From Myxococcaceae bacterium JPH2 (GTDB lineage Bacteria > Myxococcota > Myxococcia > Myxococcales > Myxococcaceae), in assembly GCA_016458225.1 (NCBI GenBank), contig JAEMGR010000006.1, forward strand, positions 1 through 64,000: 64,000 bases of DNA. Reading direction: 5' to 3'. Under the pieces are notes generated by a model, which saw only the letters and a list, made by a program, of their open reading frames with translations, searched no databases and was not told the origin of the DNA. A program made the position numbers and the translations under genes. The stretch's first letter is position 1, and every line of letters starts with the position of its first letter. Of the stretch, positions 7,098-34,532 are shown piece after piece.

Positions 7098-7367
7098 TCA
7101 GGCCGCGGGGGCCGCGCCGCCCTGTTCCTGCAGGAGCTGCTCGCAGAGCGAGGCCACGTGCTCCAGCGTGTTGAACAGGTCCACCATGGAGACCTGCACG
7201 CCCAGCTCGTCCTCGATGCGGTTGGCCAGCATGGTGGCGAGCAACGAGTTGCCGCCGATCTCCAGGAAGTGGTCCGCCGGCCGCACCACCTCCACTCCCA
7301 GCGACTCGCGCCAGTAGTCAGCCAACTTCTGTTCCATGGACGTTCGGAGGACGCTGTCGGTGCTCAC
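7098..7367 (-). CDS. Free-standing peptidyl/acyl carrier protein (PCP)
   Basis: An 89-residue discrete carrier protein. The phosphopantetheine attachment motif is GGNSLLAT around residues 38-45, preceded by DHFLEI and followed by a helix with a VDLF element. It lies between the C-A-PCP-TE gene and the multimodular NRPS on the same strand, 81 bp upstream of the latter. The upstream AMP-dependent ligase (11472-13151) is a natural candidate to load it, and the first C domain of the next NRPS is a natural acceptor. That would make this the starter-unit carrier, which is inference. It could also carry an amino acid that is modified before use. The acidic, alanine-rich C-terminal tail is usual for the family. 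Confidence 0.93.
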   Translation of the reverse strand: MSTDSVLRTSMEQKLADYWRESLGVEVVRPADHFLEIGGNSLLATMLANRIEDELGVQVSMVDLFNTLEHVASLCEQLLQEQGGAAPAA

Positions 7368-7408: not shown

Positions 7409-11425
<4,017 letters not shown>

Positions 11426-11471: not shown

Positions 11472-13151
11472 CTAACGCGCGCGCGAATTGAGCTGCTCAC
11501 GCAAGAGGTGCTTGCGCACCTTGCCGGTGGCCGTCTTGGGCATCGCGTCGACGAGTTCCAGGCGGTCTGGCCAGTACTGATTGGACATGCCCTGCTGCTT
11601 CAGGTGCTGGCGCAGCTCGTCCAGGGTGGGCGTGCCCTCGCCCTCGCGCGTCACGACGACGGCACAGACACGCTCGCCGCCAATCTTGTCATCCGAGTGC
11701 GCGACGACCGCGACTTCCTTCACCTTGGGATGGGAATACAGCGCGGATTCCACTTCCACGACGGGAATCTTATAGCCATATCGAAAGATGACGTCCTTGA
11801 GCCGGCCGACGATGCGGATGCCGCCTCGGCCGTCGTCGCGCGCCAGGTCTCCGGTGTCGAACCAGCCTTCGGCGTCCACACTGGCGGCATAGATGTCGTC
11901 ACGCTTGAAATAGCTCAGACACTGGCTGGCGCCGCGCACCAACAGGCGGCCGGTGCCGTCTGGATAGGGCGTCCCATCCTCGGCCACGGCGGGGGCAATC
12001 CTGACATCCATCCACTCCACCGCGCGGCCGTCGCTGTGGGCGGGCCAGTCTGGCGGGTCGTCCTGGCGGGTGATGGTGACGGCGCCATTCTCCGTCATCC
12101 CCCACAATGTGTGCAGTTGAATGCCGAACATTTCCCTCACGGTCGCGATGAGGTGGGGCGGAACGGGGATGGAGCCCGTGGCCAGCTTTCGCAACGAGGA
12201 GGTGTCGCGCGGGCGCTTGCGCTGCGTCGCGATGACATTCATCAGGTAGGTCGGAATGCCATAGGAGAAGGTGACGCGGTGCTCCTCGATGAGCTTGAGC
12301 GTCAGCTCGGGGTCACCCACGTCCATGTAGACGGCGGTCGCGCCGAGCTGCACGGGGAGCTGGAACAGATAGGTGAAGCCCGTGGAGGCGGTGAGCAGGG
12401 ACGGGAGGCAGAAGACGTCCTCGCCCGTCAGTGACAGGGTTTCTCCCAGCGCCCGGGTGATGCCGTAGTTGGTGTTGTGGGAGTGGATGACGCCCTTGGG
12501 CTCGCCCGTGGTGCCGGACGTGTAGAGGACGTTGCAGACCTCGTCCGCGTGGGCCTCGCGTGCGTCCAGCTCGGCGGCCGGGCGCTCCTCCTCCCAGGCG
12601 CGCGCGACGAAGGTGGCGTCGAAGTCCAGCTCGCCCGGCCCCAATGGGCCCTCGGCGCCCAGGAGCACCCGGTGCCGCAGCGAGGGCAGCACGCCCGCGA
12701 TCTCCCGCGCCATGTCGCGGTGCGTGTAGCCCGCCCAGGCCTGCGGCCCGATGTACACGGACGCCTCGGTGCGGCCGAGGATGAACTCCACCTCACGCCG
12801 TCGGTAGTCCGGAGGAATGGGCGCGATGACCGCGCCCATGCGCGCGCAGGCCAGCGCCAGCGCGGAGAACTGCCACCCATTGGGGAGCTGCACCGCGACG
12901 ATGTCCTCGCGACCCACCCCCAGCGACAGCAACGCCCCCGCGAACCGATCCATATAACGGCTCAGGTCCGCATAGGTCAGACGTGTCACATCCTTGGAAA
13001 AATACCGTGCGGCAATGATTGCTGTCTTCTCTGGATGGGATTGCACGGCGCGCCGAAGGTCATCCACAATCGTGGCGTCACGCCACCAACCCCTCTGCCG
13101 ATAGAGGGCGCCGTGCGTCTGGGCCGCAGGGTTCTGGAAGCGCTGTCCCAT
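11472..13151 (-). CDS. AMP-dependent acyl-CoA/acyl-carrier ligase
   Basis: Class I adenylate-forming enzyme of 559 residues. It should activate a carboxylic acid with ATP and pass it to CoA or to a carrier protein. Visible motifs are YTSGTTGEPKG, the aromatic-substrate region ending in WGMTENG, GWFDTGDLARDDG, GRLKDVIFRYGYKIP and PKTATGKVRKHLL with the late catalytic Lys. I chose the ATG at 13151 because GAGGAGAA lies a few bases upstream; 32 more codons are open upstream but lack a good ribosome site. The protein resembles cyclohexanecarboxylate or medium-chain acyl ligases more than NRPS A domains. As first gene of the left arm next to a free PCP, it probably supplies the starter acyl unit. 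Confidence 0.9.
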   Translation of the reverse strand: MGQRFQNPAAQTHGALYRQRGWWRDATIVDDLRRAVQSHPEKTAIIAARYFSKDVTRLTYADLSRYMDRFAGALLSLGVGREDIVAVQLPNGWQFSALALACARMGAVIAPIPPDYRRREVEFILGRTEASVYIGPQAWAGYTHRDMAREIAGVLPSLRHRVLLGAEGPLGPGELDFDATFVARAWEEERPAAELDAREAHADEVCNVLYTSGTTGEPKGVIHSHNTNYGITRALGETLSLTGEDVFCLPSLLTASTGFTYLFQLPVQLGATAVYMDVGDPELTLKLIEEHRVTFSYGIPTYLMNVIATQRKRPRDTSSLRKLATGSIPVPPHLIATVREMFGIQLHTLWGMTENGAVTITRQDDPPDWPAHSDGRAVEWMDVRIAPAVAEDGTPYPDGTGRLLVRGASQCLSYFKRDDIYAASVDAEGWFDTGDLARDDGRGGIRIVGRLKDVIFRYGYKIPVVEVESALYSHPKVKEVAVVAHSDDKIGGERVCAVVVTREGEGTPTLDELRQHLKQQGMSNQYWPDRLELVDAMPKTATGKVRKHLLREQLNSRAR

Positions 13152-13347
13152 CTGGATTCTCCTCGCAGGAATTGACGTATCGCGGCGCGGGAAGCGGCAC
13201 GGTAGTGATGGTGTTGTCACCGGTAAAGGCAGGTTTTTCTCGCACATCCGAATATTGAGAAAATCCGCGTTGACGTAACACGATGCGATTTCCTAGGGTG
13301 CCAGCTCGCGGCCGGAACCCAGGGCTGACGCCAGCGACGCAACGGGC
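13152..13347. promoter_or_regulatory. Divergent intergenic promoter region between the two arms of the cluster
   Basis: 196 bp separating the minus-strand ligase/NRPS arm from the plus-strand AmCP/encapsulin arm. It contains an AT-rich patch near 13,230-13,300, unlike the flanking DNA. The octamer TTGACGTA occurs twice, at 13172-13179 and 13270-13277. The second copy could serve as a plus-strand -35 box, with a poor -10 (TAGGGT) near 13,294. No regulator gene lies inside the cluster, so control is probably exerted from elsewhere on this region. The promoter assignment is by eye only. Confidence 0.4.
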
Positions 13348-14175
13348 ATGATTCCTCTCTCGGCGAATGCATCCCAATTGGAGCGGCGAGCCCGGCGGGT
13401 CCGGCGGCTCATCCTGAGGCTGGCGGCCACGCCGTCGGGCTGTCATCTCGGGGGCTCGTTGTCGGTGGTGGAGCTGCTGGTGGTGCTGTTGGGGGAGGTG
13501 ATGCGGGTGGATCCGCGCGCGCCCCTGTCCCCGGAGCGAGACCACCTCATCCTGTCCAAGGGCCACGCGGCCGCGGGGATGTACGCGGCGCTGGCGGAGT
13601 TCGGCTTCCTGGACGCCGAGGAGCTGGTGAGCCGCTACAACGCGGAGGGCAGCCCGTACACCGGACACGTCAACGCGGCGGTGCCCGGAGTGGAGTTCGC
13701 CACCGGGAGCCTGGGACATGGGCTGGGGTTGGGCGTGGGGCTCACGCTGGGACACAAGCTCAAGGGCGAGCCCAACCGGACCTATGTGGTGTGCGGTGAT
13801 GGAGAGATGGGCGAGGGCTCCAACTGGGAAGCGCTGCAAGTGGCCGCGCACCACCGGCTCTCCGCGCTGACGCTCGTGGTGGATCGCAACGGCGGACAGA
13901 ACGACGGGCCCACCGAGTCCATTCTCTCGCAGGCCTCGCTGGCGCGGCGGCTGGAGGCGTTTGGCTTCCACACCTCCGAGGTGGACGGGCACGACCTGAC
14001 GGCGCTGGGCGCCGCGCTGCGCGAGTCCGGGGGGGAGCGGCCTCGGGCGCTCGTGGCTCACACGCAGAAGGGCGCGGGGGTCCCCATGCTGCGCGGCAAG
14101 GGCCCGCACTACGCGGTGTTCTCACCGGAGCACCTGCGCCGGGCGCTCGCGTCCCTGGGCGAGGAGGCGTCATGA
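13348..14175 (+). CDS. Transketolase, N-terminal (TPP-binding) subunit
   Basis: A 275-residue thiamine-diphosphate subunit of a split transketolase. It shows the cofactor-binding signature GDGEMGEGSNWEA at about residues 150-162 with the downstream Asn of DRNGGQND, and the substrate histidines in CHLGGSL, SKGHAAAG and TGHVN. Split transketolases work as dimers with the C-terminal subunit, encoded next with a 4-base ATGA overlap. In AmCP-dependent routes of Streptomyces (vazabitide A, ficellomycin) a transketolase moves a two-carbon ketol unit onto the carrier-bound semialdehyde. The carrier gene three positions into this operon supports the same job here. It is the first gene of the operon, and its ribosome site is weak. 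Confidence 0.93.
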   Translation: MIPLSANASQLERRARRVRRLILRLAATPSGCHLGGSLSVVELLVVLLGEVMRVDPRAPLSPERDHLILSKGHAAAGMYAALAEFGFLDAEELVSRYNAEGSPYTGHVNAAVPGVEFATGSLGHGLGLGVGLTLGHKLKGEPNRTYVVCGDGEMGEGSNWEALQVAAHHRLSALTLVVDRNGGQNDGPTESILSQASLARRLEAFGFHTSEVDGHDLTALGAALRESGGERPRALVAHTQKGAGVPMLRGKGPHYAVFSPEHLRRALASLGEEAS

Positions 14176-15209
14176 GCATGGCGTCACGGCCCGGCGCGGA
14201 CCTGCTGGAGACGCCCGAGGTGTGGCTGCGCGAGCACCCGGAGCTGGCCTCGCGGCTCGTCTTCCGTCACGCGGCGGCGCGCTTCGCGGAGCTGGACTCG
14301 CGCATCGTCTTCCTCGAGGCGGACCTGGGCGGCGGCGCGGACCCCTTCGAGTCGCGGCACCCGGGCCGCTACTTCAACCTGGGCATCTGCGAGGCGACGC
14401 TCATCGACGTGGCGTGCGGCATGGCGCGCGTGGGCCACGTGGTGATCGCCCACTCGTTCGCGCCGTTCGGGGTGATGCGGGCCTGTGAGCAGGTGCGCCT
14501 GGGCATGGCGTACGGACGCGCGAACGTGAAGCTCGTGTGCGACTACGGCGGCGTGGCGGGCGCGTTCTTCGGGCCCACGCATCACGCGGTGGAGGACCTG
14601 GCCATCCTCCGCGCCATGCCGGGGATGACGGTGGTGTCCCCCATGGACGGGCTGGAGACGGTGCAGGCCACGCGCGCGATGCTCCAGCACGACGGCCCGG
14701 TGTACCTGCGTCTGGGGCGCAACCGCGTCACGCGGCACGACGTGCCCCGCGGTCCCTTCGAGCTGGGGCGCGCGCAGTGCCTGCGCGAGGGCGAGGACGT
14801 GGGCCTCCTGGCGCACGGCGAGGTGGGCGTGGCGGTGGCGCTGGACGCGGCGCGGCTCTTGGAAGCGCGCGGTGTGTCGTCGCGCGTGCTGAACGTGCAC
14901 ACGCTCAAGCCGCTGGACGAGGCGGCGGTGCTGGAGACGGCGGAGCGCACGCGGCTGCTGGTGACGGTGGAGGAGCACAACGTCCTGGGCGGCCTGGGCG
15001 GAGCGGTCTGCGAGACGGTGGGCGCGGTGGGCCTGGGGCGGCGCGTGGTGCGCGTGGGCCTTCAGGACCGGTACGACGCGACGGCGGGCTCGCACGAGTC
15101 ATTGCTGGCCGGACACGGTTTGGAGGGGGCGCAGGTGGCGGAGCGCGTGTTGAGCGCGCTGCCGCGTCCCCGGATGGCGGCGGTTGGACCAGTCACGAGG
15201 AGGAGTTGA
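14172..15209 (+). CDS. Transketolase, C-terminal (pyrimidine-binding) subunit
   Basis: A 345-residue partner of the preceding subunit. It carries the pyrimidine-binding transketolase fold, with NLGICEATLIDVACGMA containing the catalytic Glu, followed by HSFAPFGVMRACEQVR and the YGGVAGAFFGPTH loop, and a C-terminal transketolase domain containing EEHNVLGGLGGAV. The length fits stand-alone C subunits (about 310-340 residues). Start and stop overlap the neighbours tightly (ATGA with the previous gene; the carrier-protein ATG follows the stop directly), so the two subunits are probably made in equal amounts. The acceptor is inferred to be a carrier-bound glutamate semialdehyde. An ordinary pentose-phosphate role is unlikely in this context. 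Confidence 0.93.
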   Translation: MSMASRPGADLLETPEVWLREHPELASRLVFRHAAARFAELDSRIVFLEADLGGGADPFESRHPGRYFNLGICEATLIDVACGMARVGHVVIAHSFAPFGVMRACEQVRLGMAYGRANVKLVCDYGGVAGAFFGPTHHAVEDLAILRAMPGMTVVSPMDGLETVQATRAMLQHDGPVYLRLGRNRVTRHDVPRGPFELGRAQCLREGEDVGLLAHGEVGVAVALDAARLLEARGVSSRVLNVHTLKPLDEAAVLETAERTRLLVTVEEHNVLGGLGGAVCETVGAVGLGRRVVRVGLQDRYDATAGSHESLLAGHGLEGAQVAERVLSALPRPRMAAVGPVTRRS

Positions 15210-15404
15210 ATGCAGCCGCAAAAGCAGATGGACGCCCTGGGTGGCAGCCCATGTCCCCTGTGTGCGCTGGACGTCCCGGGGGGGAACCGGATGATGGGCG
15301 AGGTCGTCACATGCGAAGGCTGTGACGCGGAGCTGGAGGTGGTGGGGCTCAATCCACTGCGTCTGGCCGAGGCGCCCGAGGTCGAGGAAGACTGGGGCGA
15401 GTAG
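15210..15404 (+). CDS. lysW: LysW-type amino-group carrier protein (AmCP)
   Basis: A 64-residue acidic protein with two CxxC zinc ligand pairs (Cys15/Cys18 and Cys35/Cys38) and the diagnostic C-terminal motif EDWGE. In Thermus LysW and Streptomyces AmCPs, the gamma-carboxyl of the terminal Glu forms an isopeptide bond with the alpha-amino group of glutamate or aminoadipate, protecting it while the side chain is modified. The GAGGAGG-like ribosome site ends just before the TGA of the previous gene. The next gene encodes the matching LysX-type ligase. Neighbours (transketolase, sulfotransferase, NRPS) indicate a specialised-metabolism AmCP, not one serving lysine or arginine synthesis. Identity is firm; the exact cargo (Glu or aminoadipate) is inferred. 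Confidence 0.95.
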   Translation: MQPQKQMDALGGSPCPLCALDVPGGNRMMGEVVTCEGCDAELEVVGLNPLRLAEAPEVEEDWGE

Positions 15405-15411
15405 TCGGCCC

Positions 15412-16254
15412 ATGGCGACGATCGACCTCGTCTACACGCGCCTGCGCGCCGAGGAGCGGCTGATTCACGACGCCCTCCGCCGGCGAGACTGCGTCGTGCA
15501 CATGCACCAGGACGCGGACCTGGTGCTGTCGTTGGACAAGCGGCCCTGGTCGCAGAGCGACACGGTGCTCATGCGCAGCATGTCCTTCACGCGGGCGCGC
15601 TACCTGGCCACCTTCCTGGAGGTGAAGGGGGCACGCGTCCTCAACAGCGCGCGGGCCATCTCCACCTGCGGGGACAAGGCCCTGACGTCCGCGGCGCTGG
15701 CGGCGCGCGGCGTGCGGCAGCCGTGGTCGTTCGTGGCCTTCGATGAGGAGGCGTGCCTCGCGGAGATTGAGCGGCGGGGCTACCCGGTGGTGACGAAGCC
15801 GGTGCTGGGCTCGTGGGGCCGCATGGTGGCGCGCATCGACTCGCGCAGCGCCGCCGAGGGCATCCTGTCCACGCGCTTCGGGACGGGCGGCGCGCAGGAC
15901 CACGTGGCGCTCGTGCAGCAGTACATCGACAAGCCGGGCTATGACTTGCGCGTGTACGTGATGGGGCGCGCGGTGGGCGGCATGCGCCGGCGCTCCGAGC
16001 ATTGGATCACCAACACGGCGCGCGGCGCGGTGCCGGAGCGCTACGAGGTCCCCGCCGCGCACGCGAAGCTGGCGGAAGAGGCCGCGGCGGCGGTGGGTGG
16101 CGACATCGTCGCGGTGGACCTGCTGGAGACGCGCGAGGGCGAGGTCTACGTCAACGAGCTGAACCACTGCGTGGAGTTCGGGCGGAGCATCGAGCTGACG
16201 GGCATCCCGCTGCCGGACCTCATCGCCGAGCACGTGTTGGGAGTCCGGCGATGA
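15412..16254 (+). CDS. lysX: LysX-type ATP-grasp ligase loading the AmCP
   Basis: A 280-residue ATP-grasp enzyme that should join the alpha-amino group of glutamate (or aminoadipate) to the C-terminal Glu of the AmCP. The sequence closely follows Thermus LysX: CGDKALTSAAL, YPVVTKPVLGSWGRMVA, RSEHWITNTARG and the metal-binding NELNHCVEF. The ATG at 15412 lies 7 bases after the carrier-protein stop; the open frame upstream is read-through. It overlaps the next gene by ATGA. Since the AmCP plus C2-transfer route in Streptomyces starts from glutamate, glutamate is the expected substrate. The substrate-pocket residues alone do not let me exclude aminoadipate. Confidence 0.94.
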   Translation: MATIDLVYTRLRAEERLIHDALRRRDCVVHMHQDADLVLSLDKRPWSQSDTVLMRSMSFTRARYLATFLEVKGARVLNSARAISTCGDKALTSAALAARGVRQPWSFVAFDEEACLAEIERRGYPVVTKPVLGSWGRMVARIDSRSAAEGILSTRFGTGGAQDHVALVQQYIDKPGYDLRVYVMGRAVGGMRRRSEHWITNTARGAVPERYEVPAAHAKLAEEAAAAVGGDIVAVDLLETREGEVYVNELNHCVEFGRSIELTGIPLPDLIAEHVLGVRR

Positions 16255-17291
16255 CGGCGCGCGTGGCGGTGCTGGGCGCGGCCGGCTACACGGGCGGCGA
16301 GGTGCTGCGCCTCTTGTTGGCCCACCCGGCCGTGGAGGTGGTGCAGGCGACCTCGGGCCAGTTCGCGGGCAAGCGGCTGGACTTCCCGCATCCGCACCTG
16401 CGGGGCATGAGCACGCTGCGCTACTCGCCCCATGACGCGGTGGAGCCGTGCGACGTGCTGGTGAGCTGCCTGCCCTCGGGCGAGCTGCTCCAGCGCTGGG
16501 AGCGCGTGGCCCCGCTGGCCGAGCGCGTGGTGGACCTGAGCGCGGACTTCCGGCTGGACGCCGAGGGACATGCGCGCTGGTACCCGCAGAACCCGCGACC
16601 TCCAGGCCTGCCCACGTTCGTCTATGGGCTGCCGGAGTGGATGGGGGAGTCGCTCGCCGGCGCGCGCTTCGTCTGCATCCCCGGGTGCATGGCGCACGCG
16701 GGGCTCCTGGCCCTCATCCCGCTGGTGCGCGCGGGCGTGGTGAAGCCCGAGGTCGTGGTGGACGCGAAGACAGGCTCATCGGGCGGCGGCTCCTCGCCGG
16801 GCCGGTCCTCGCACCATCCGGAGCGGGCCAATGCGCTGCGCTGCTTCCGGCCCGTGGGCCACCGGCACACCGGGGAGCTGGAGGACATCGTCTCGCGCGT
16901 GACGGGCGTGCGACCCACCGTCCACTTCAGCGCCACCGCTGTGCCGTCCGTGCGCGGCATCCTGGCCACCGTGCACGCGTTCGCATCGCGGCCCGTGGAC
17001 GAGGCCGAGGTGGCGCGCGTGCTCGCCATGGCCTACCGGGACAAGCCGTTCGTGCGGCTGCTGCGTCCCAACTCCGCCGCGTCGCCGTTCCCGGAGCCGG
17101 GCCCGCTGGCGGGCACCAACCACTGCGACCTCGCCGTGTCCGTGGACGCCGAGCGCGGCCGCATCGTGGTCAACGCCGCCATCGACAACCTGGTGAAGGG
17201 CGCGTCGGGCACGGCGGTGCACGCGCTCAATCTCATGCTCGGGCGTCCGGAGACCGAGGGACTCGGCTTCCGGGGGCTGCATCCCCTCTAG
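16251..17291 (+). CDS. lysY: LysY/ArgC-type AmCP-acyl-phosphate reductase
   Basis: A 346-residue NADPH-dependent reductase of the N-acetyl-glutamyl-phosphate reductase family. It would reduce the carrier-bound acyl phosphate to the semialdehyde. Visible features are the Rossmann motif GAAGYTGGE at residues 9-17, catalytic Cys in IPGCMAHAG near residue 147, and the GHRHTGELED region near residue 205 with the conserved His. It has the usual family length. It begins inside the LysX stop (ATGA) and ends 12 bases before the shell-protein gene. The substrate should come from the LysZ-type kinase encoded at 19859-20725, and the aldehyde product is the natural acceptor for the split transketolase. 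Confidence 0.95.
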   Translation: MTARVAVLGAAGYTGGEVLRLLLAHPAVEVVQATSGQFAGKRLDFPHPHLRGMSTLRYSPHDAVEPCDVLVSCLPSGELLQRWERVAPLAERVVDLSADFRLDAEGHARWYPQNPRPPGLPTFVYGLPEWMGESLAGARFVCIPGCMAHAGLLALIPLVRAGVVKPEVVVDAKTGSSGGGSSPGRSSHHPERANALRCFRPVGHRHTGELEDIVSRVTGVRPTVHFSATAVPSVRGILATVHAFASRPVDEAEVARVLAMAYRDKPFVRLLRPNSAASPFPEPGPLAGTNHCDLAVSVDAERGRIVVNAAIDNLVKGASGTAVHALNLMLGRPETEGLGFRGLHPL

Positions 17292-17303
17292 GAAAGGAAT
17301 TCC

Positions 17304-18161
17304 ATGAGCTCGCTTGTCACGACGGCGGACGTGTCTCCCGGCAGGGCCTTCGCGGAGGCGTGCCAGCAGCAAGGAGCGCAGGCGTCCGTCTCGTTCAACA
17401 CGACCATCACCGACGCCTTCCCCGGCTTCAAACGCCGCCCGCGCATCGCCGTGCGCGGCATGTTCAAGGTGGCGCGCGCGGAGAAGGACCCCGTGCCCTA
17501 CTGGTACGAGACGCACCCGCGCACGGCGCCCACCGTGAAGGTGGAGGACGTGGAGCTGCGTCCCGAGGCGGCCTTCGAGTTCCATCAGGACCAGATGCCC
17601 CTGAAGCCCACCACCGCGTGGATTCAAGTGCCTCGGCCGCTGCTGGAGGACCGCGAGGCGCTGGCGCAGTTCATCGACTTCCGCCTGCTCGTGCGCCTCA
17701 ACACGGCGGAGAACCAGGCGCTGTGCATCGGCAAGGGCGGCGAGCGCGTGCGGGGCTTGTTGGAGACGCCGGGCATCCGCCGCCTGCCGCCGCGCAAGAC
17801 GCCGGTGGCCTCGCTCCTGTCGGCGTGCGCCGAGGTGGAGCAGATGGGCGGATCCGCGGACGGCATCATCATCAACTCGCTCGACTTCTACGCGCACCTG
17901 GTGGGCCAGAACGGGCTCCTGGGGGACCTGGCCAGCATGGGCGTTCGCATCTGCCGCACGCGCATGGTGAACCCGGGCACGGTCATCGTGGGGGACTTCA
18001 CCGCCGCGGCCACGCTGTTCGACAGCGGTCGCTCCGTCATCCGCTTCGCGCAGCCTCCGCCCGGCATCTTCCCGCGCGAGGGACTGGCCGCGTATGGCGA
18101 GGTCTACACGGCGCTCACGGTGCACCTGCCCACCCACTTCTTCGTCACCTCGTTGGTGTGA
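17304..18161 (+). CDS. HK97-fold encapsulin shell protein (family 3-like)
   Basis: A 285-residue protein with the sequence pattern of HK97-type major capsid proteins: a P-domain-like stretch PRPLLEDREALAQFIDFR near residues 107-124, IGKGGERVRGLLETPGI near 137-153 (the conserved GxG...GIL loop), GIIINSLDFYAHL near 190, VIVGDFTAAATLFD near 228, and a closing beta segment GEVYTALTVHLPTHFF. No phage genes (terminase, portal, protease) are nearby. It has its own ribosome site (AGGAAAGG) 12 bases after lysY and is followed by the sulfotransferase ATG within 3 bases. Family 3 encapsulins have been proposed from genome mining in peptide gene clusters of actinobacteria and myxobacteria. It probably self-assembles around one or more pathway enzymes. 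Fold call is strong; the family 3 label rests on context. Confidence 0.85.
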   Translation: MSSLVTTADVSPGRAFAEACQQQGAQASVSFNTTITDAFPGFKRRPRIAVRGMFKVARAEKDPVPYWYETHPRTAPTVKVEDVELRPEAAFEFHQDQMPLKPTTAWIQVPRPLLEDREALAQFIDFRLLVRLNTAENQALCIGKGGERVRGLLETPGIRRLPPRKTPVASLLSACAEVEQMGGSADGIIINSLDFYAHLVGQNGLLGDLASMGVRICRTRMVNPGTVIVGDFTAAATLFDSGRSVIRFAQPPPGIFPREGLAAYGEVYTALTVHLPTHFFVTSLV

Positions 18162-18163
18162 CG

Positions 18164-19111
18164 ATGGCGGACGCGCCCGTGCTCACGGTCCTCTACATCA
18201 CCGGGTGGTGCCGCAGCGGCAGCACCATCCTCGGCAACGTGCTCAACGAGCTGCCGGGCGCCTTCCACGTGGGCGAGCTGAGCTTCCTCTGGAAGAACGC
18301 CTACGGCCACGGCTCCAACACGTTGTGCGGCTGCGGCACGCAGCTGGTGGACTGCGCCATCTGGAAGGCCGTCCTCGAGGGGCCTGAGCGCGCGGCGGAA
18401 GTGGTGAAGCGGCAGCAGGCCGCGGTGCGCACCCGGCACACGTGGCGCGTGTTGGACGAGGCGGGCGAGTCCACCCCGCTGCGCGAGCACGCGGCCTTCC
18501 TCGCGCGCACCTACCGCGCCATCGCGGACGTGACGGGCAGCACGGTGCTGGTGGACAGCGGCAAGTTCCCCTCCGAGGCGGCGCTGCTGCCGCACGTGGA
18601 GGGCATCCGGCCCTTGTACCTGCATCTGGTGCGGGACCCGCGCGCGGTGACGCACTCGTGGACGAAGACGAAGCAGTACGTCGTCCCCATGTCCGCGGCC
18701 CGCAGCACCGCGTACTGGGTGGGCTTCAACCTCGCCTCCGAGGAAGTGACGCGCCGCCATCCGAGCGCGTCCGTCTTCCTGCGCTACGAGGACTTCATCG
18801 CCGCGCCGAGCGCCACGGTGGACACGCTGCTCGACCTGATGGGCGTGGACCGCGCGCGCAACCCGGTGGATGGGCGCACGGTGGTGCTGGGAACGAATCA
18901 CACCGTCACGGGCAACCCGGACCGCTTCCGCAGCGGGCCCACGTTGCTGCGCGGCGAGGACGACGCATGGCGAGGCGAGCTGTCCGCCTCGGCTCGCGCC
19001 ACCACCCTGGCCATGGCCTGGCCACTGATGGCGCGCTACGGCTACTTCTCCGGCACCGCCCCGGTCGCCGACTCCAGGAGGGACGTGCTTGGAACTGGGA
19101 CTCGCCAATAA
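18164..19111 (+). CDS. PAPS-dependent sulfotransferase
   Basis: A 315-residue sulfotransferase that should move sulfate from PAPS to a hydroxyl group. It shows the 5'-phosphosulfate loop WCRSGSTILGN at residues 13-23 and the 3'-phosphate motif LVRDPRAVTHS at about 154-164. In the vazabitide A pathway, a sulfate ester on the C7 dihydroxy-diamino acid is the leaving group for aziridine closure, so a comparable role is plausible. The ATG at 18164 lies 2 bases after the encapsulin stop. The 3' end overlaps the SDR gene by 23 bases and contains that gene's ribosome site. About 20 polar residues after the last predicted helix form a tail that could be a shell-targeting signal; that is speculation. 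Confidence 0.9.
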   Translation: MADAPVLTVLYITGWCRSGSTILGNVLNELPGAFHVGELSFLWKNAYGHGSNTLCGCGTQLVDCAIWKAVLEGPERAAEVVKRQQAAVRTRHTWRVLDEAGESTPLREHAAFLARTYRAIADVTGSTVLVDSGKFPSEAALLPHVEGIRPLYLHLVRDPRAVTHSWTKTKQYVVPMSAARSTAYWVGFNLASEEVTRRHPSASVFLRYEDFIAAPSATVDTLLDLMGVDRARNPVDGRTVVLGTNHTVTGNPDRFRSGPTLLRGEDDAWRGELSASARATTLAMAWPLMARYGYFSGTAPVADSRRDVLGTGTRQ

Positions 19112-19862
19112 GGTCGCGCTCGTCGCCGGAGGCTCCAGCGGTCTGGGGCTCGCGGTGGCCGAGGAGCTGGTGAAGGAAGGCGCGCACGTGGCCATCGCGG
19201 CGCGTGACCCCGAGCGCCTCGCGCGCGCCGAGCGCATGCTCAACGCGGTGGGCCGCGGTCGCGTGCTCGCCTCTCCCGTGGATGTCCGGGACGCGGCGGC
19301 CATGCGCCGCTGGGTGGAGCAGGTGTCCGCCAAGCTGGGCGGTCCGCACATCGTGGTGACGAACAGCGGAGGACCTCCGCCGGGGCCCGCCACGGGCTTC
19401 GACGTGGACGACTACCGCGACGCCACGAACGCGGTGCTCTTGCCGCCCATCGGGCTGGCGCTCGCGGCGCTGCCGTACATGAAGCGGGCCGGATGGGGGC
19501 GCCTGCTCTTCATCACCTCCGAGACGGTGGTGCGTCCGGTGGCCCGCTTCGCGCTGTCGGGCTTCGCGCGCTCGGGCATCGTCGCGTTCGCCCAGGCGCT
19601 GGTGCAGGAGCTGGGCGACTCGGGCATCACCGTCAACGTGCTGGCCCCCGGCTACACGCGCACGCCGCCGGTGGAGCGCACCGCGGGGGCCTCGGGGGAC
19701 GTGGACGCGGGGCTGCGCGCCATGGCCGCGCACATCCCCATGAAGCGGGTGGGGCGCGCGGACGAGTTCGCCGCCGCGGCCGTGTTCCTCGCCAGCGAGC
19801 GCGCGTCCTTCATCACGGGCACGGTGCAGCTCGTGGATGGCGGCGCGAGCGTGGTGGGATGA
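19089..19862 (+). CDS. Atypical short-chain dehydrogenase/reductase
   Basis: A 257-residue SDR with Rossmann motif GGSSGLGLA at residues 13-21, TNSGG in place of NNAG, and the ITVNVLAPGYTRT strand. The catalytic YxxxK is absent: Ser and Arg occupy those places (SGFAR), while the preceding catalytic Ser (ITSE) is kept. The same SxxxR pattern occurs in a subgroup of SDRs, so activity is possible but may differ from normal carbonyl reduction. Start is TTG at 19089, inside the sulfotransferase gene, chosen because AGGAGG at 19076-19081 sits 7 bases upstream. The stop overlaps the kinase ATG. SDRs and sulfotransferases have been suggested as family 3 encapsulin cargo, as I recall. The substrate is unknown. 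Confidence 0.9.
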   Translation: MELGLANKVALVAGGSSGLGLAVAEELVKEGAHVAIAARDPERLARAERMLNAVGRGRVLASPVDVRDAAAMRRWVEQVSAKLGGPHIVVTNSGGPPPGPATGFDVDDYRDATNAVLLPPIGLALAALPYMKRAGWGRLLFITSETVVRPVARFALSGFARSGIVAFAQALVQELGDSGITVNVLAPGYTRTPPVERTAGASGDVDAGLRAMAAHIPMKRVGRADEFAAAAVFLASERASFITGTVQLVDGGASVVG

Positions 19863-20725
19863 GCACCGCGTCCGTCGGTCTCGCGGGTCCTCCCGTGGTG
19901 GTGAAGATTGGCGGGGCCGCGGGCGTGGACCTGGACGGCGCCTGCGAGGACATCGCCGAGCTGACGCGGCAGGGCGTGCGCGTGGTCGTCGTCAACGGTG
20001 GCTCGGACGCGGGCGAGCGGCTCTTGTCGTCGCTGGGGCTCGCGCGCCGCGAGGCGACCACGGTGAGCGGCAACGTCGTGCGCCTCACCGACGCGCCCAC
20101 CCTGCGCGCGCTCACCATGGCGTGGGTGGGCGAGGTGAACAAAGCCGTCGTCCTCGCGCTGCTCGCCCGAGGCGTGTCCGCCGTGGGGCTGTGCGGCGCG
20201 GATGGCCGCGTGCTGACCGCGAAGCGACGCGCGCCGCTGAAGCTCCAGGAGGGCGGGCGCGTGCGCATCGACCGGGAGCATCTGGCCGGAGAGGTGACGG
20301 CCATCAACGTCGCGCTGCTCGACGCGTTGTTCTCGGTGGGGCAGGTGCCTGTCATCTGCCCGCCCGCCGTCACGGCGGACCAGGTGCTGGTGAACGTGGA
20401 CGCGGATCAGGTGGCCGCCGCGCTCGCGGTGGGGCTGGGGGCGCGGGCATTGGTGATGTTGTCCAACGTGCCGGGGCTCCTGGCGGACCCCGCGGATCCC
20501 TCGACGCTGGTTCGCGAGAGTGACGATGCGCGCGCCAGCATGCGGCTGGCCCGTGGGCGCATGCGGTACAAGTTGGAGGCGGCGGCGCGCGCGCTGGAGG
20601 GGGGAGTGCCCTCGGTGCATGTCAGCGCCTCGTGCGCGGAGCGGCCCGTGTTCTCCGCGCTGGAGGGACTTCGGGGCACGCGCTTCACCCAGCCAGGAAA
20701 GGCGGCGGCGGATGCAGGCGCGTGA
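19859..20725 (+). CDS. lysZ: LysZ-type AmCP-glutamate/aminoadipate kinase
   Basis: A 288-residue amino-acid kinase of the N-acetylglutamate kinase family. It should phosphorylate the free side-chain carboxyl of the AmCP-bound amino acid. Motifs are VVKIGGAAG at the N terminus, VVNGGSDAGERL, GLCGADGRVL, NVDADQVAAALA and LSNVPGLLA, all placed as in Thermus LysZ. The start overlaps the SDR stop (ATGA), and the end overlaps the hydrolase by 14 bases. In NAGK the second Gly-rich loop is usually HGGG; LysZ enzymes carry HGGS and here it is NGGS, which fits a carrier-bound substrate. Together with lysW, lysX, lysY and lysK it makes a nearly full AmCP set. Confidence 0.94.
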   Translation: MSTASVGLAGPPVVVKIGGAAGVDLDGACEDIAELTRQGVRVVVVNGGSDAGERLLSSLGLARREATTVSGNVVRLTDAPTLRALTMAWVGEVNKAVVLALLARGVSAVGLCGADGRVLTAKRRAPLKLQEGGRVRIDREHLAGEVTAINVALLDALFSVGQVPVICPPAVTADQVLVNVDADQVAAALAVGLGARALVMLSNVPGLLADPADPSTLVRESDDARASMRLARGRMRYKLEAAARALEGGVPSVHVSASCAERPVFSALEGLRGTRFTQPGKAAADAGA

Positions 20726-21782
20726 GCCGGACATCGCGTTGTTGCGGTGGATGGTCGAGCAGTACAGCCCCAGTCACCACGAGCAGGCCTTCTCGCGCGC
20801 CTTGGTGGAACGGCTGGGGCGACAGGGCTGGCGCGCGCACACCGACGAGGTGGGCAACGCCATCGCGAGCCACGGCGACGGCGACACCGTCATCGCGCTC
20901 CTCGGACACATCGACACCGTGCCCGGAGAGGTGCCCGTCCGCATGGAGGGCGACACGCTCTATGGCCGGGGCGCGGTGGACGCGAAGGGCGCCATCGCCG
21001 CGTTCGTCGAGGCGGTGGAGGCGCTGACGCCCGCCGCGCGCGAGGGGAAGAAGTTCCTGCTCCTGGGCTGCGTGGAGGAGGAGGTGGCCATCACCCGAGG
21101 CGCCTTCCACGTGAAGGAGCGCTACGCACCGGACTACGTCATCAACGGCGAGCCGAGCGGCGCGCACGCGGTGACCATTGGCTACAAGGGCCTGTTGCGC
21201 CTGGACCTGGAGCACCGCGCGGCGCGGAGGCACACGGCCAGCCGCGACTACCGCGCGTCCGCCGAGCACGTGGTGGACGCCTGGAACCTGCTCAAGCGCG
21301 CGTGCGACACCTGGAACCGCGAGCGCACGTCGCTGTTCGAGCAGCACCTGCCCTCGCTGAACGCCTTCCACACCGGGGCCACCGACGAGGAGGAGTGGGC
21401 CACCGCCGCGGTCAGCATCCGCACCGGGCCGTCCACCGACGTGGAGCAGCTCCTGGCCCTGTTGGGGGAGGTGCCCTCGGTCACCGTGCGGACGGTGTCG
21501 CGCAAGGCCGCGGTCTCCACGGCGGGCCAGGATGCGCTGTTGCGCGCCTTCAAGCAGGCCATTCGCGAGCGCAACGCCCGGCCCACGCTGCGACTGAAGA
21601 CGGGCACTTCGGATTGGAACACCGTGGCGTCCGCGTGGAACGTCCCCATCGTGGCGTACGGCCCCGGTGACTCCTCGCTGGACCACACGCCCCACGAGCA
21701 CATCACCGTGCCCGAGTACGAGGAGGGCGTGGCGGTGCTGACCCGCGTGCTGGCCCTGCTGCCCACGAAGGGAGCGCCGTAG
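20712..21782 (+). CDS. lysK: LysK-type M20 hydrolase releasing product from the AmCP
   Basis: A 356-residue zinc carboxypeptidase of the M20 family, expected to cut the isopeptide bond and free the finished amino acid from the carrier. Metal and catalytic motifs are GHIDTVPG (His and Asp), GRGAVDAKG (bridging Asp), GCVEEEVAITRG (Glu pair), INGEPSG and the late LDHTPHEHI. The ATG at 20712 overlaps the kinase gene; a longer reading frame upstream has no supporting ribosome site. It is the last gene of the plus-strand operon, ending 11 bases before the convergent MFS gene. The region that in LysK reads YKG is conserved (GYKGLLRL), supporting a carrier-protein substrate over a simple acyl-amino acid. 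Confidence 0.94.
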   Translation: MQAREPDIALLRWMVEQYSPSHHEQAFSRALVERLGRQGWRAHTDEVGNAIASHGDGDTVIALLGHIDTVPGEVPVRMEGDTLYGRGAVDAKGAIAAFVEAVEALTPAAREGKKFLLLGCVEEEVAITRGAFHVKERYAPDYVINGEPSGAHAVTIGYKGLLRLDLEHRAARRHTASRDYRASAEHVVDAWNLLKRACDTWNRERTSLFEQHLPSLNAFHTGATDEEEWATAAVSIRTGPSTDVEQLLALLGEVPSVTVRTVSRKAAVSTAGQDALLRAFKQAIRERNARPTLRLKTGTSDWNTVASAWNVPIVAYGPGDSSLDHTPHEHITVPEYEEGVAVLTRVLALLPTKGAP

Positions 21783-21793
21783 GCCGCGGAAGC

Positions 21794-23029
21794 TCAGGTG
21801 CCCAGGGCCGCAAGGCCCCGCGGGCGCAGGGCGCGCGTGGTCAGCACCAGGACGAAGAACGCGAGCGCCGCGGTGGCGGTGACGATGCGCACGCCCAGCC
21901 GGTCCGACAGCTCCGCCTGCCCGGCGACGCCCACCGTGTAGCCCAGGTTGATGAACACGGTGAACAGGCTGCTGATGCGCGCCTGGAGCGCGAGGGGCGC
22001 GCGCGCCTGGCACACCGTCTTCAATCCGCTGAACGTCAGCAAGTACACCGCGCCCAGGACGAACAGGGCCGCCGTCGCCACGGGCAGGGTGGGGGACAGC
22101 CAGTAGAGCGCGGTCGCCGGCCCCAGCACCACGAGCGCTCCCTCCAGGAGTCGTCGCTGCCCGAAGCGCCGCGCCGCCGCGCTCGCGAGGAAGGCCGCGA
22201 TGACCGCGCCCGTGCCCTGCGCCGTCACGAGCAACGCGGTGGCCGAGTGACCCAGGTTCAGCACGCGCAGCGCGAAGACGGGCACCAGCCCGATGAACGG
22301 GGTGATGAGCAGGCCCACGCCCAGCACCGCGAGCAGCGCGAGGAAGATGCCGGGGTCCTCCCAGGCCAGTCGCGCGCCGTCCGCCATCCCTCGCCACAAG
22401 GGCTCGCGCCGCGTCGTCGGGGGGAGCGCGCCGCCGCGCACGCGCGTCATGGCCAGCAGCACCGCGCCGAAGGACACCGCGTTGATGAGCAGCGCCCAGG
22501 TGATGCCGCCCATGGACAGCACCAGCGCCGCCAGCGCGGGCCCCACGATGCGGCCCAGGTTGAACTGCGCCGAGTCCAGGCTCAGCGCGCTGTGCAGGTC
22601 CTCGGCGGGGACGACGGCGGCGATGAGGCCCGTGGCCGCGGGGATGACGACGCTGTTGAGGCTGCCGTTGAGCAGCGAGATGAGCGCGATGGCCGGCACG
22701 GTGAGGTGGTCCGTGTAGGCCAGCGCCGCGAGCAGTCCGGCCAGCAGCGCCTGGGCGCCCACGCACACCGCGAGGAACGCGCGTCGATCGAACCGGTCCG
22801 CCAGCACGCCGCCCAGCGGGGACAACACGAGGGAGGGCAGGTACGTCAGCGACGCGACCGCGCCTGTCCAGGCCGCCTCGCCCGTCACCTGCGTGACGTG
22901 GACGCCCAGCGCGATGGACTCCATCCACGTGCCGATGTTGGACACCAGGGTGCCCGTCCAGATGGCCGCGTAGTCGCGGTGCGAGAAGGCCCGGAACGAG
23001 GCGAAGCGCGGCGATGAGGGAGCGGACAC
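21794..23029 (-). CDS. MFS exporter (EntS-like, DHA3 type)
   Basis: A membrane transporter of about 411 residues with roughly 12 hydrophobic segments. The first segment, FRAFSHRDYAAIWTG followed by NIGTWMESIA, is typical of the EntS-like MFS group, and the loop GGVLADRFDRR is the MFS signature between helices 2 and 3. I chose the GTG at 23029 because the homologous start falls a few residues before FRAF; the open frame continues upstream without a clear start. The gene converges on the AmCP operon with an 11-base gap. Self-resistance by export of the cluster product is the likely role. Substrate is not determinable from sequence. Confidence 0.85.
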   Translation of the reverse strand: MSAPSSPRFASFRAFSHRDYAAIWTGTLVSNIGTWMESIALGVHVTQVTGEAAWTGAVASLTYLPSLVLSPLGGVLADRFDRRAFLAVCVGAQALLAGLLAALAYTDHLTVPAIALISLLNGSLNSVVIPAATGLIAAVVPAEDLHSALSLDSAQFNLGRIVGPALAALVLSMGGITWALLINAVSFGAVLLAMTRVRGGALPPTTRREPLWRGMADGARLAWEDPGIFLALLAVLGVGLLITPFIGLVPVFALRVLNLGHSATALLVTAQGTGAVIAAFLASAAARRFGQRRLLEGALVVLGPATALYWLSPTLPVATAALFVLGAVYLLTFSGLKTVCQARAPLALQARISSLFTVFINLGYTVGVAGQAELSDRLGVRIVTATAALAFFVLVLTTRALRPRGLAALGT

Positions 23030-26570: not shown

Positions 26571-27614
26571 CTAGGGGATGGCGGGGATGACGGAATCCGG
26601 CACGTTGGCTCGGATGAGCAGCCGGTTCAGCTCATTCACATACTCGCTCTGGAAGCGCTGCGAGCCGCTGAGGAAGCCCTGGGCCACGAGGATGTTGGAC
26701 GTGGGGTCGGAGGTGACGGGGCGCACGTTGTGAGCGCGGACCCACTCGAGCGACTTCTCCACGGAGACGATGGGGTCGGACTTGCCGTTCTGGGTGACGA
26801 GCGAGTCGCCCACGCCCAGCTCGTGCGCCTTCTTGAGGTTGCCCTCGGGGACGACGAGCGGGTGCTCGGTGGTGACGCGCAGCACGCCGCCGGACTCGGT
26901 GTGGAAGGTGATGATCTCCTGCTCGGAGAGCCGCTGGTCCAGCGTGTAGTGCTCCACCGGGTTGTCCATGAAGGTGAGCGCCGCGAAGGTGGCGTTGGGC
27001 GTGAGCGTCACCAGGTCACGGCGGCCGGTGGCCAGCGCCTCGCCGATGGGCACGGGCCCGGTGGACAGGAGGACCTCCTGGTCCGGCGTGTAGCAGCCGG
27101 GCTCGCAGAGGGCGTCCATCTGGACGGCGACGGGCTTGTAGGTGCCGGGCACGCCCTGGATCTGCGCGCCGGTGTAGCCGGCCGTCGCGGAGCCCGGAGC
27201 GCCGGGCCCAGGCCACGGGGCGTAGGTGTTGTTGGGGTCCACGTACACCGGATACAGCCAGGTGCCGGCGAGCGCGGCGTTGTTCGCCTCCATCGAGAAG
27301 GCCGAGTCCCAGAAGCGCATGTCCAGGCCCCCCCACTGCGTGAGGCCGTAGGGATTGCCCTGCTGCCAGCGCTTGGCCCACTTCTGCCGCCCATAGCCCT
27401 GGTCGATGTTGAGTTGGTCGTACGTGCATCGGTAGTTGTAGGGGACCCAGGTGCCGCCGCCGCCGCCCCCACCCCCGCCGCCCGGATCATTGGGGTCGGT
27501 GTCCATCATCAGGGATTCGGGGAGGTTGGACTGCGGAGGGGCTTCGATGGCGGACGCGGTGAGCGAGCCACCCAGGGTCAGGATGAGCAGCGAATGTGAC
27601 AATGCATTGCGCAT
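26571..27614 (-). CDS. Secreted Hint-domain protein, paralog 1
   Basis: A 347-residue protein. Signal peptide at the N terminus, then a linker with ten consecutive glycines, then a conserved domain starting YRCTYDQLNIDQGYGRQ, and a C-terminal Hint (hedgehog/intein) module from about residue 190. The Hint module shows GCYTPDQEVLLSTG (block A with candidate nucleophile Cys), TEHPLVVPEG (block B TxxH), a GVGDSLV turn and SNILVAQGFLSG near the end. Such modules can self-cleave or attach a partner. The ATG at 27614 has a GAGGAA ribosome site; the longer frame is rejected. Paralogs lie at 27768-28715 and 33600-34532. Unlike inteins, no C-extein domain follows, only about 35 residues. Function of the N-terminal domain is unknown. 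Confidence 0.85.
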   Translation of the reverse strand: MRNALSHSLLILTLGGSLTASAIEAPPQSNLPESLMMDTDPNDPGGGGGGGGGGTWVPYNYRCTYDQLNIDQGYGRQKWAKRWQQGNPYGLTQWGGLDMRFWDSAFSMEANNAALAGTWLYPVYVDPNNTYAPWPGPGAPGSATAGYTGAQIQGVPGTYKPVAVQMDALCEPGCYTPDQEVLLSTGPVPIGEALATGRRDLVTLTPNATFAALTFMDNPVEHYTLDQRLSEQEIITFHTESGGVLRVTTEHPLVVPEGNLKKAHELGVGDSLVTQNGKSDPIVSVEKSLEWVRAHNVRPVTSDPTSNILVAQGFLSGSQRFQSEYVNELNRLLIRANVPDSVIPAIP

Positions 27615-27671
27615 GGCTTCCTCGGTGAGGACGACGGGCTGGAGCGACAGGGGGCGCCACGACAGGACGCG

Positions 27672-27710
27672 ACCGGGCACCGCGCGTGGACTTCCACGGC
27701 GGTGCCCGGT
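27672..27710 (-). terminator. Strong hairpin between Hint paralogs 1 and 2
   Basis: A 12-bp stem (ACCGGGCACCGC with GCGGTGCCCGGT) is extended, after one unpaired base, by a 5-bp stem (CGTGG/CCACG) closed by a 4-base loop. It lies between the stop of paralog 2 (27768) and the start of paralog 1 (27614). No U-tract follows in the minus direction, so it may attenuate or process the transcript and not fully end it. Confidence 0.5.
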
Positions 27711-27767: not shown

Positions 27768-28715
27768 TCAGGGCGTAAACGGGATGACGGAGTCCGGCAC
27801 GTTGCCGCGGAGGATGAGGCGGTTCATCTCCTCCACGTACTCGCTCTGGAACCGCTGCGAGCCGCTGAGGAAGCCCTGCGCGACGACGATGTTGGACGTG
27901 TAGTCCGTGGTGACCGGGCGCACGTTGTACACGCGCGTGTGCTCGATGGACTTCTCCAGCGAGACGATGGTGTCGAACTTGCCATCCTGGTTCACGAGGC
28001 GGTCACCCACGCCCAGCTCGCGCGCCCGCTTGAGGTTGCCCTCGGGGACGACGAGCGGGTGCTCGGTGGTGACGCGCAGCACGCCGCCGGACTCGGTGTG
28101 GAAGGTGACGATCTCCTGGTCCGCCGCGTCACGGTCCAGCGTGTAGTGCTCCACCGTGTTGTCCATGAAGGTCAGCGCGGAGAACGTCGCGTCAGGCGTG
28201 AGCGTCACCAGGTCCATCTGGCCGGACTCGAGCGCGCTCTGGATGCCCATGGGGCCGCTGGACAGGAGGATCTCCTGGTCCGGGGCGTAGCACCCAGGCT
28301 CGCAGAGGCCGTCCATCTGGATGCCGGCGGGCTTGAACGTGTAGGGAATGTCCGTCTGGATTTGCGCGCCGGTGAGGGTGGCCGTGGTGCTGCCATACGC
28401 GCCCGGGCCCTTCCAGGGCGAGTACATGTTCGCGGGGTCGACGTAGATGGGGTACAGCCAGATGGGCGTCGCCAGGGCGGCGGCGTCGTTGGCCTCCGTC
28501 GAGTAGGACGAGTGCCAGTAGCGCATGTCCAGCCCGCCCCACTGCGTGGTGGCATACGGGTTCTGCTGCTGCCAGCGCTTGGCCCACCTCTGGCGGCCAT
28601 AGGCCTGATCCGAGTTCAGCTGATCGAAAGTGCACCGGTAGTTGGTGGGCGCATAGGCCGCGAACGCGGGCGTGGACAGCACCAACGCCCCAATGACTGC
28701 GGTGAGTGTCTTCAT
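27768..28715 (-). CDS. Secreted Hint-domain protein, paralog 2
   Basis: A 315-residue protein with signal peptide ending near AFAA, followed at once by the shared N-terminal domain (NYRCTFDQLNSDQAYGRQ, then WAKRWQQ and WGGLDMRYW) and a Hint module from about residue 158 (GCYAPDQEILLSSG, TEHPLVVPEG, GVGDRLV, VYNVRPVT, SNIVVAQGFLSG). It lacks the glycine run of paralog 1. Sequence identity with paralog 1 is high across the Hint part by eye. Conserved Cys pairs (YRC; LCEPGC) may form a disulfide outside the cell. It is 35 bases downstream of the propeller lipoprotein stop, so the block is probably co-transcribed. Confidence 0.87.
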   Translation of the reverse strand: MKTLTAVIGALVLSTPAFAAYAPTNYRCTFDQLNSDQAYGRQRWAKRWQQQNPYATTQWGGLDMRYWHSSYSTEANDAAALATPIWLYPIYVDPANMYSPWKGPGAYGSTTATLTGAQIQTDIPYTFKPAGIQMDGLCEPGCYAPDQEILLSSGPMGIQSALESGQMDLVTLTPDATFSALTFMDNTVEHYTLDRDAADQEIVTFHTESGGVLRVTTEHPLVVPEGNLKRARELGVGDRLVNQDGKFDTIVSLEKSIEHTRVYNVRPVTTDYTSNIVVAQGFLSGSQRFQSEYVEEMNRLILRGNVPDSVIPFTP

Positions 28716-33599: not shown

Positions 33600-34532
33600 C
33601 TACGGGATGAGCGCGTCCGGGACGTTGGTGCGGAGGATGAGGCGGTTGAGCTCCTCCACGTACTCGCTCTGGAACCGGGCGGAGCCGTTGAGGTAGCCCT
33701 CGGCGACCAGGATGTTGGAGGTCAGGTCCGTGCTGGTGGGGCGCAGGTTGTACGCCTTGCCGAACCAGGACTCGCCCTGGATGGAGACGATCTCGTCAGG
33801 GGTGCCGTCCTGGCGGACCAGGCGCTCACCGATGACGAACTCCTTGGCCTTCTTGAGCGTGCCGTCGGTGGTGACGAGCGGGTGCTCCAGGGTGACGGAC
33901 AGCTTGCCGCCCGAGGCCATGCGGAAGCGGAGGATGTCCTGGCGCGCCGCGTCCTTGTCCACCGTGTAGCGCTCCACGGTGTTGGGCACGAGCGTCAGCT
34001 TGTCCATGGAGGCGTCCTTGGACAGGGTGACGAGGTCATCCACGCCGCCCGCCTGGGCCTTCTCGATGGGCAGCGAGCCGCTCTGGAAGAGCACCTGCTG
34101 GTCGGGGGTGTAGCAGCCCGGCTCGCAGACGCCGTCCATGAGGATCTGGACCGGCTTGGAGTTGAAGCCGAGCGCGAAGATCTGATCGCCCGTGAAGCCC
34201 GCCGTCGTGGTGCCCGGAGCTCCCGGCCCCTTCCAGGGCTCGTAGTTGTTGTTGGGGTCCACGAACACCGGGTACAGCCAGGTGTTGTAGGCATTGAGCG
34301 CGTCGCGCGCATCCGTGTCATACACGGTGGCCCAGAAGCGCTGATCCTTGCCCGTGGAGATGTTGTACGGATCCGCGTCCGCCCACTTCTTGGCCCACTG
34401 CTGGCGGCCCTTGGCCTGATCGCTGGTGAGTTGATCGAACGTGCAGCGGTAGTAGCTCGGAGCCCACGCCGCCATGGCCGGAGCGGCAAGGCCCAGGGCG
34501 ACAACGAGGGTCGGCAGAGACAACTTGTGCAT
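33600..34532 (-). CDS. Secreted Hint-domain protein, paralog 3
   Basis: A 310-residue protein with a signal peptide (cleavage near AMAA|WAPS), the shared N-terminal domain (YYRCTFDQLTSDQAKGRQ) and a Hint module from about residue 155 (GCYTPDQQVLFQSG, LEHPLVTTDG, AYNLRPTS, SNILVAEGYLNG). In block B the usual TxxH is kept as TLEH. It is more diverged than paralogs 1 and 2 are from each other. The ATG at 34532 follows a strong AGGAGGAAGC ribosome site; the longer frame upstream is not needed. As the most upstream gene of the minus-strand block it is probably the first gene transcribed. Confidence 0.86.
   Translation of the reverse strand: MHKLSLPTLVVALGLAAPAMAAWAPSYYRCTFDQLTSDQAKGRQQWAKKWADADPYNISTGKDQRFWATVYDTDARDALNAYNTWLYPVFVDPNNNYEPWKGPGAPGTTTAGFTGDQIFALGFNSKPVQILMDGVCEPGCYTPDQQVLFQSGSLPIEKAQAGGVDDLVTLSKDASMDKLTLVPNTVERYTVDKDAARQDILRFRMASGGKLSVTLEHPLVTTDGTLKKAKEFVIGERLVRQDGTPDEIVSIQGESWFGKAYNLRPTSTDLTSNILVAEGYLNGSARFQSEYVEELNRLILRTNVPDALIP

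Follow-up and report, generated by a model that had tools for sequence, protein, structure and literature searches.

Why does a gene for a capsid-type protein lie in the middle of an operon that would build an amino acid on a carrier protein, beside the genes of an NRPS? The question is raised by the window, that is, the whole stretch of 64,000 nucleotides analysed here, which begins at the contig start and covers 64 kb of contig C6 in the 9.0-Mb genome of Myxococcaceae bacterium JPH2. An earlier note on this DNA had proposed that the gene encodes a natural-product encapsulin of family 3 and is not part of a prophage. The occurrence of such encapsulins in clusters of this kind has been known since 2021, and the present locus is a further member. 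The part of the survey by Andreas and Giessen available to us (PMC8346489) counts 132 family 3 encapsulins (97 in Actinobacteria, 34 in Proteobacteria and one in Chloroflexi) and, as of 2021, notes only one family 3 cluster as experimentally studied. According to the same part, the clusters carry sulfotransferases, short-chain dehydrogenases/reductases (SDRs), NRPS/PKS and amino-group carrier proteins (AmCPs), with the chloromyxamide cluster among them; the locus described here has the same shell family together with an NRPS, a sulfotransferase, an SDR and an AmCP, and the hosts there include Myxococcus and Streptomyces. What is new is the strictness with which the shell gene is inherited together with the sulfation step. 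This strict co-inheritance, a split AmCP-encapsulin locus and a missing aminotransferase, all described below, were not found in that part of the survey.

The operon and its neighbours

The operon is a run of ten genes on the + strand (13348 to 21782), of which the encapsulin gene is the sixth. The run opens with the N-terminal half of a transketolase (TK_N, 13348..14175; PF00456, 1.7e-29), followed, in an order that relatives keep, by its C-terminal half (TK_C, 14172..15209; PF02779/PF02780). Next come a LysW-type AmCP with the C-terminus EDWGE (15210..15404; TIGR01206, 60.5 bits, over the cut-off), a LysX-type ligase of the kind that attaches an amino acid to the AmCP (15412..16254; TIGR00768 over its cut-off, TIGR02144 below) and a LysY/ArgC-type acyl-phosphate reductase (16251..17291; TIGR01850, 316 bits). 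Downstream of the encapsulin gene (17304..18161) lie a sulfotransferase of the Sulfotransfer_3 type (18164..19111; PF13469, 1.8e-10) and an SDR with a TTG start (19089..19862; PF13561, 4.4e-44), the beginning of which overlaps the sulfotransferase gene by 23 bp. A LysZ-type kinase for the carrier-bound amino acid (19859..20725; NF010659, 237.8 bits, over the cut-off) and a LysK-type hydrolase, of the kind that takes the product off the AmCP (20712..21782; TIGR01902, 286 bits, over the cut-off; NF003367 just below), complete the run.

The genes on either side are on the - strand. A stand-alone acyl-AMP ligase (11472..13247; PF00501) diverges from the operon, and a homologue that is 47-50% identical is present in all three actinobacterial clusters that combine an AmCP with an encapsulin. 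Beyond it are an NRPS module with the domains C-A-T-TE (7409..11425, by profile matches), a stand-alone peptidyl carrier protein (7098..7367; PF00550) and a multimodular NRPS that is truncated by the contig end (3..7016, also by profile matches); substrate prediction for the NRPS gave no usable specificity code. These neighbours match the families that had been reported earlier for an operon of AmCP-bound amino acid synthesis beside an NRPS. On the other side, an MFS exporter gene (21794..23000; PF05977, 9e-42), the listed open reading frame of which extends to 23335 with a start probably nearer 23000, may possibly export the product. No methyltransferase was found among the window genes scanned. 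Farther downstream, three exported-looking proteins (26571-27680, 27768-28715 and 33600-34661, all on the - strand) carry a common C-terminal motif resembling SGSxRFQSEYVxExNRLxxRxNVPD; Pfam gave nothing for the first of them, and neither the first nor the second matched a PHROG.

Identity of the capsid-type gene

The open reading frame at 17304-18161 (+) has 285 codons for amino acids and an ATG start, with the Shine-Dalgarno-like sequence AGGAAAGGA immediately 5′ of it. The LysY gene ends at 17291, leaving a gap of 12 bp, and the ATG of the sulfotransferase gene (18164) follows after 2 bp, so that length, flanking genes and spacing are as the earlier note had given them. As GC3 is 0.94, dN/dS is 0.061 against the orthologue of Citreicoccus inhibens and orthologues are present in 31 genomes, the frame is coding and not a product of chance. 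In the same comparison, the other nine operon genes have dN/dS values of 0.03-0.17, and the purifying selection on the encapsulin thus resembles that on the neighbouring enzymes. C. inhibens M34 is also the closest named relative by encapsulin (98%).

The protein is almost certainly a family 3 encapsulin. It matches NF041188 (encap_f3, the NCBIfam profile for the “family 3 encapsulin nanocompartment shell protein”) at 1.2e-107 and 359 bits against a cut-off of 180, and matches to this profile are bimodal across 395 actinobacterial genomes, being either above 290 or below 60 bits. The AlphaFold2 model, built from 41 sequences, has a pLDDT of 93.2 and a pTM of 0.89, and predicts a full-length HK97 fold, as the earlier note had expected. 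Its best matches among solved structures are the HK97 and D3 proheads, followed by encapsulins of families 1 and 2; with HK97 prohead I (8fqk_D), 241 residues are superposed at 3.0 A with a Z score of 23.4, the identity with the HK97 major capsid protein gp5 being 22%. A sequence search of the PDB with the encapsulin returned no family 3 structure. In the HMMER alignment, the cross-link residues of HK97, K169 and N356, align with R86 and E259 of the encapsulin, and on our reading of this alignment a covalent chainmail of the HK97 type is therefore not expected.

Could the gene be what remains of a prophage or satellite capsid? A match to PF05065 (40.9 bits) would speak for this origin, and that to the phage capsid profile TIGR01554 stays under its cut-off. 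By contrast, the encapsulin has no PHROG match at E 0.001 and no relative in the viral contigs searched; the neighbours scanned include no phage structural gene and, specifically, no scaffold, protease or portal gene. In the phylogeny, the encapsulin family splits from 13 phage-type capsids with an SH-aLRT of 100, in a tree for which the program flags long branches. Additionally, the dN/dS of 0.06 and the co-inheritance with the operon argue against a remnant. Given the missing PHROG match, the absence of phage genes among the neighbours scanned and the separation in the tree, we reject this origin, which has a negligible probability; both the family assignment and the lack of accompanying phage genes had been put forward in the earlier note, and they hold. 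Neither outcome that the note would have taken as refuting, a fold other than HK97 or a grouping with phage capsids, was obtained. The encapsulin is a domesticated capsid protein of the HK97 fold.

Inheritance in the myxobacterial family

Of 96 genomes of the family, 31 have a gene for the encapsulin, and the sulfotransferase gene is present in precisely these 31. The AmCP gene is found in those 31 and in one more (G121), the contig of which stops before the position of the encapsulin; among the 31 is G061, where contig ends divide the encapsulin gene in two. The encapsulin is, very probably, an obligate component of the pathway.

In eight genomes, the AmCP and encapsulin genes are absent from the main locus and stand together elsewhere, after another NRPS (loci L050, L051, L052, L055, L056, L058, L061, L062 and L083-L090). 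The main locus then carries, in order, the ligase, the carrier, the NRPS, both transketolase halves, LysX, LysY, the sulfotransferase, the SDR, LysZ and LysK; in G112, the two loci are 5.6 Mb apart by coordinate. As the encapsulin has here remained with the AmCP, far from the sulfotransferase, gene adjacency is not enough to identify the sulfotransferase as the cargo. Seven of the eight split-locus encapsulins were placed in the tree, where they form one clade (SH-aLRT 99), and the split therefore looks like one event.

This pairing is the main evidence for an alternative in which the carrier is the true partner: the shell would bind or package the AmCP and concentrate carrier-bound intermediates, with the enzymes acting on the AmCP from inside or at the shell surface. 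The eight genomes, all of one clade, displace exactly these two genes, and in two of the three actinobacterial AmCP clusters with an encapsulin the two genes are also close together, on opposite strands. However, the split counts as a single event, a common need for high expression would explain the pairing equally, and the family 3 systems of classes I and II (see below) have no AmCP match. The N-termini of the AmCPs, which might have served as targeting peptides, are indeed extended, but the sequence of the extension is not conserved, and this candidate was discarded. A docking shell for the carrier is, on this evidence, rather unlikely.

Family 3 loci in other bacteria and clusters without encapsulin

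Of the family 3 loci examined outside the myxobacteria, 19 of 19 have a sulfotransferase gene within 3.6 kb of the encapsulin gene, and each also has a gene for an AKR or SDR (families were assigned by Pfam on representatives and by similarity for the remainder). The sulfotransferases belong to two Pfam families, 11 being of the Sulfotransfer_5 and eight of the Sulfotransfer_3 type, and genes for CysD and CysN, which would supply PAPS, adjoin some of the loci. Three classes can be told apart. Class I combines an A-T-reductase, an AKR, a Sulfotransfer_5 enzyme and the encapsulin, mostly with an MFS gene; class II has a DegT aminotransferase, a Sulfotransfer_3 enzyme, an SDR, the encapsulin and a DAO, mostly with a methyltransferase; and class III has AmCP and transketolase genes with the encapsulin, a Sulfotransfer_3 enzyme, an SDR and the acyl-AMP ligase. 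No AmCP match was obtained at class I and II loci. In a single genome, that of Nonomuraea sediminis (G149), C14, C39 and C3 each carry a locus with a family 3 encapsulin; two of these three loci belong to class I and the other to class II. A basic patch, FKRRPR, considered as a hallmark of AmCP-type encapsulins, was dropped, as the actinobacterial AmCP class lacks it.

As a control, 16 actinobacterial AmCP-transketolase clusters were taken from the 395 genomes. The sulfotransferase-SDR pair is present in 3/3 of those with an encapsulin and in 0/13 of those without, while a DegT aminotransferase is present in 0/3 and 11/13, respectively (Fisher tests, 0.002 for the pair and 0.018 for DegT, uncorrected for relatedness and weakened by the phylogenetic non-independence of the clusters). 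In one encapsulin-free AmCP cluster (L141:5940-8938, - strand), the genes for CysD and CysN (sulfate activation) adjoin a gene of the Sulfotransfer_5 type; these two neighbours, considered as candidates for AziU3/U2, are thus enzymes of PAPS supply and not AziU.

The control also bears on the proposal of the discoverers (PMC8346489, in the part available) that the shells sequester reactive aldehydes or ketones, here a semialdehyde or ketone from which the cytoplasm would be shielded. The product of LysY would be an aldehyde, and reductase genes stand beside all 19 of the non-myxobacterial encapsulins. Nevertheless, the 13 encapsulin-free clusters run the same semialdehyde chemistry, and an aldehyde alone therefore does not call for a shell; we consider this function improbable.

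Proposed pathway and place of the shell

The explanation that we favour, with roughly even confidence, is an AmCP-dependent route to a seven-carbon amino acid in which a shell of the encapsulin surrounds the late stage of sulfation and ring closure. The steps are inferred by analogy with known AmCP and azinomycin chemistry. LysX would load glutamate on the AmCP, LysZ would phosphorylate it and LysY would reduce it to the semialdehyde, to which the transketolase would add two carbons, giving a 5,7-dihydroxy-6-oxo chain. The SDR would then reduce the 6-keto group (or a cyclic imine), no aminotransferase having been found in the cluster, and the sulfotransferase would convert a hydroxyl to a sulfate leaving group. 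Finally, LysK would free the alpha-amine, which would close a pipecolate-type ring with an electrophilic C7 arm. That the encapsulin forms a shell at all is probable, and its role would most likely be to keep the alkylating intermediate from the cytoplasm; that it encloses precisely the sulfation and ring-closure stage is given slightly less than an even chance. We place it there because the pathways of classes I and II, which have no AmCP, share with this one mainly the reductase, the sulfotransferase and the encapsulin. As AmCP-bound substrates would be too big for capsid pores, the AmCP would have to be co-packaged, or only free intermediates would enter.

In azinomycin-type biosynthesis, glutamate is phosphorylated, reduced, extended by a transketolase, aminated to DADH and sulfated, after which the ortho amine displaces the sulfate, as the leaving group, to form an aziridine (PMC9570651). 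The DADH-aziridine pathways of azinomycin and vazabitide thus likewise employ a kinase, a reductase, a transketolase, a carrier (the AmCP in vazabitide) and sulfation. They need an aminotransferase, which makes the 6-amino group, by contrast with the present cluster, in which neither PF00202 nor PF01041 was found; the search was limited to these two PLP families and detected none near the clusters of six myxobacterial genomes. The present operon, in turn, adds the SDR and the encapsulin.

The product had been called unknown, and this can be narrowed to a closest known compound, chloromyxamide, which contains 6-chloromethyl-5-methoxypipecolate. Its C7 pipecolate carbon skeleton would fit the pathway proposed here, and the cluster, from Myxococcus sp. 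MCy10608, also has a family 3 encapsulin and an NRPS (PMC8346489, in the part available). The C. inhibens relative of the present cluster lies on the NODE_18 contig (160,096 bp) and is therefore taken as region 18.1 of scaffold 18, an NRPS region with 13% similarity to the chloromyxamide cluster (PMC8538283). The low value, which refers to the C. inhibens version, means that the peptide part is different.

A broader reading, which we hold to be unlikely, is that all family 3 encapsulins serve one chemistry, in which an amino alcohol is sulfated and the neighbouring amine displaces the sulfate to give an alkylating cyclic amine inside the capsid. The capsid would then take the role that a soluble enzyme of sulfate elimination has in azinomycin-type pathways, and the presence of a common capsid in unrelated pathways with two sulfotransferase families would be explained. 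The comparative data turn a broad association with “peptide clusters” into a specific and testable claim, namely that the shell accompanies the reduction-sulfation pair that would prepare a leaving group. If this is true, an alkylating warhead would here be made within a protein compartment, which would be useful for enzyme engineering and for genome mining of such compounds.

Cargo signals

No conserved terminal peptide for cargo loading was seen in the operon enzymes. This would be consistent with a non-compartment role, in which the capsid fold has been reused as a scaffold, a sponge for self-resistance or a particle that exports the finished compound, and an MFS gene does occur in several clusters. 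Against it stand the high-confidence prediction of an entire HK97 fold and the conservation of that fold in different phyla, and we consider such a role very doubtful. One candidate signal, the C-terminal LGTGTRQ of the sulfotransferase after a variable linker, proved to be another reading frame of the start of the SDR gene (ELGLAN). It is missing from the Corallococcus sulfotransferase, where the sulfotransferase and SDR genes are parted by an intergenic array (L068:11608-12730) of repeats of about 69-71 bp with ACCTGTCGGACAGTCGGACAGGT.
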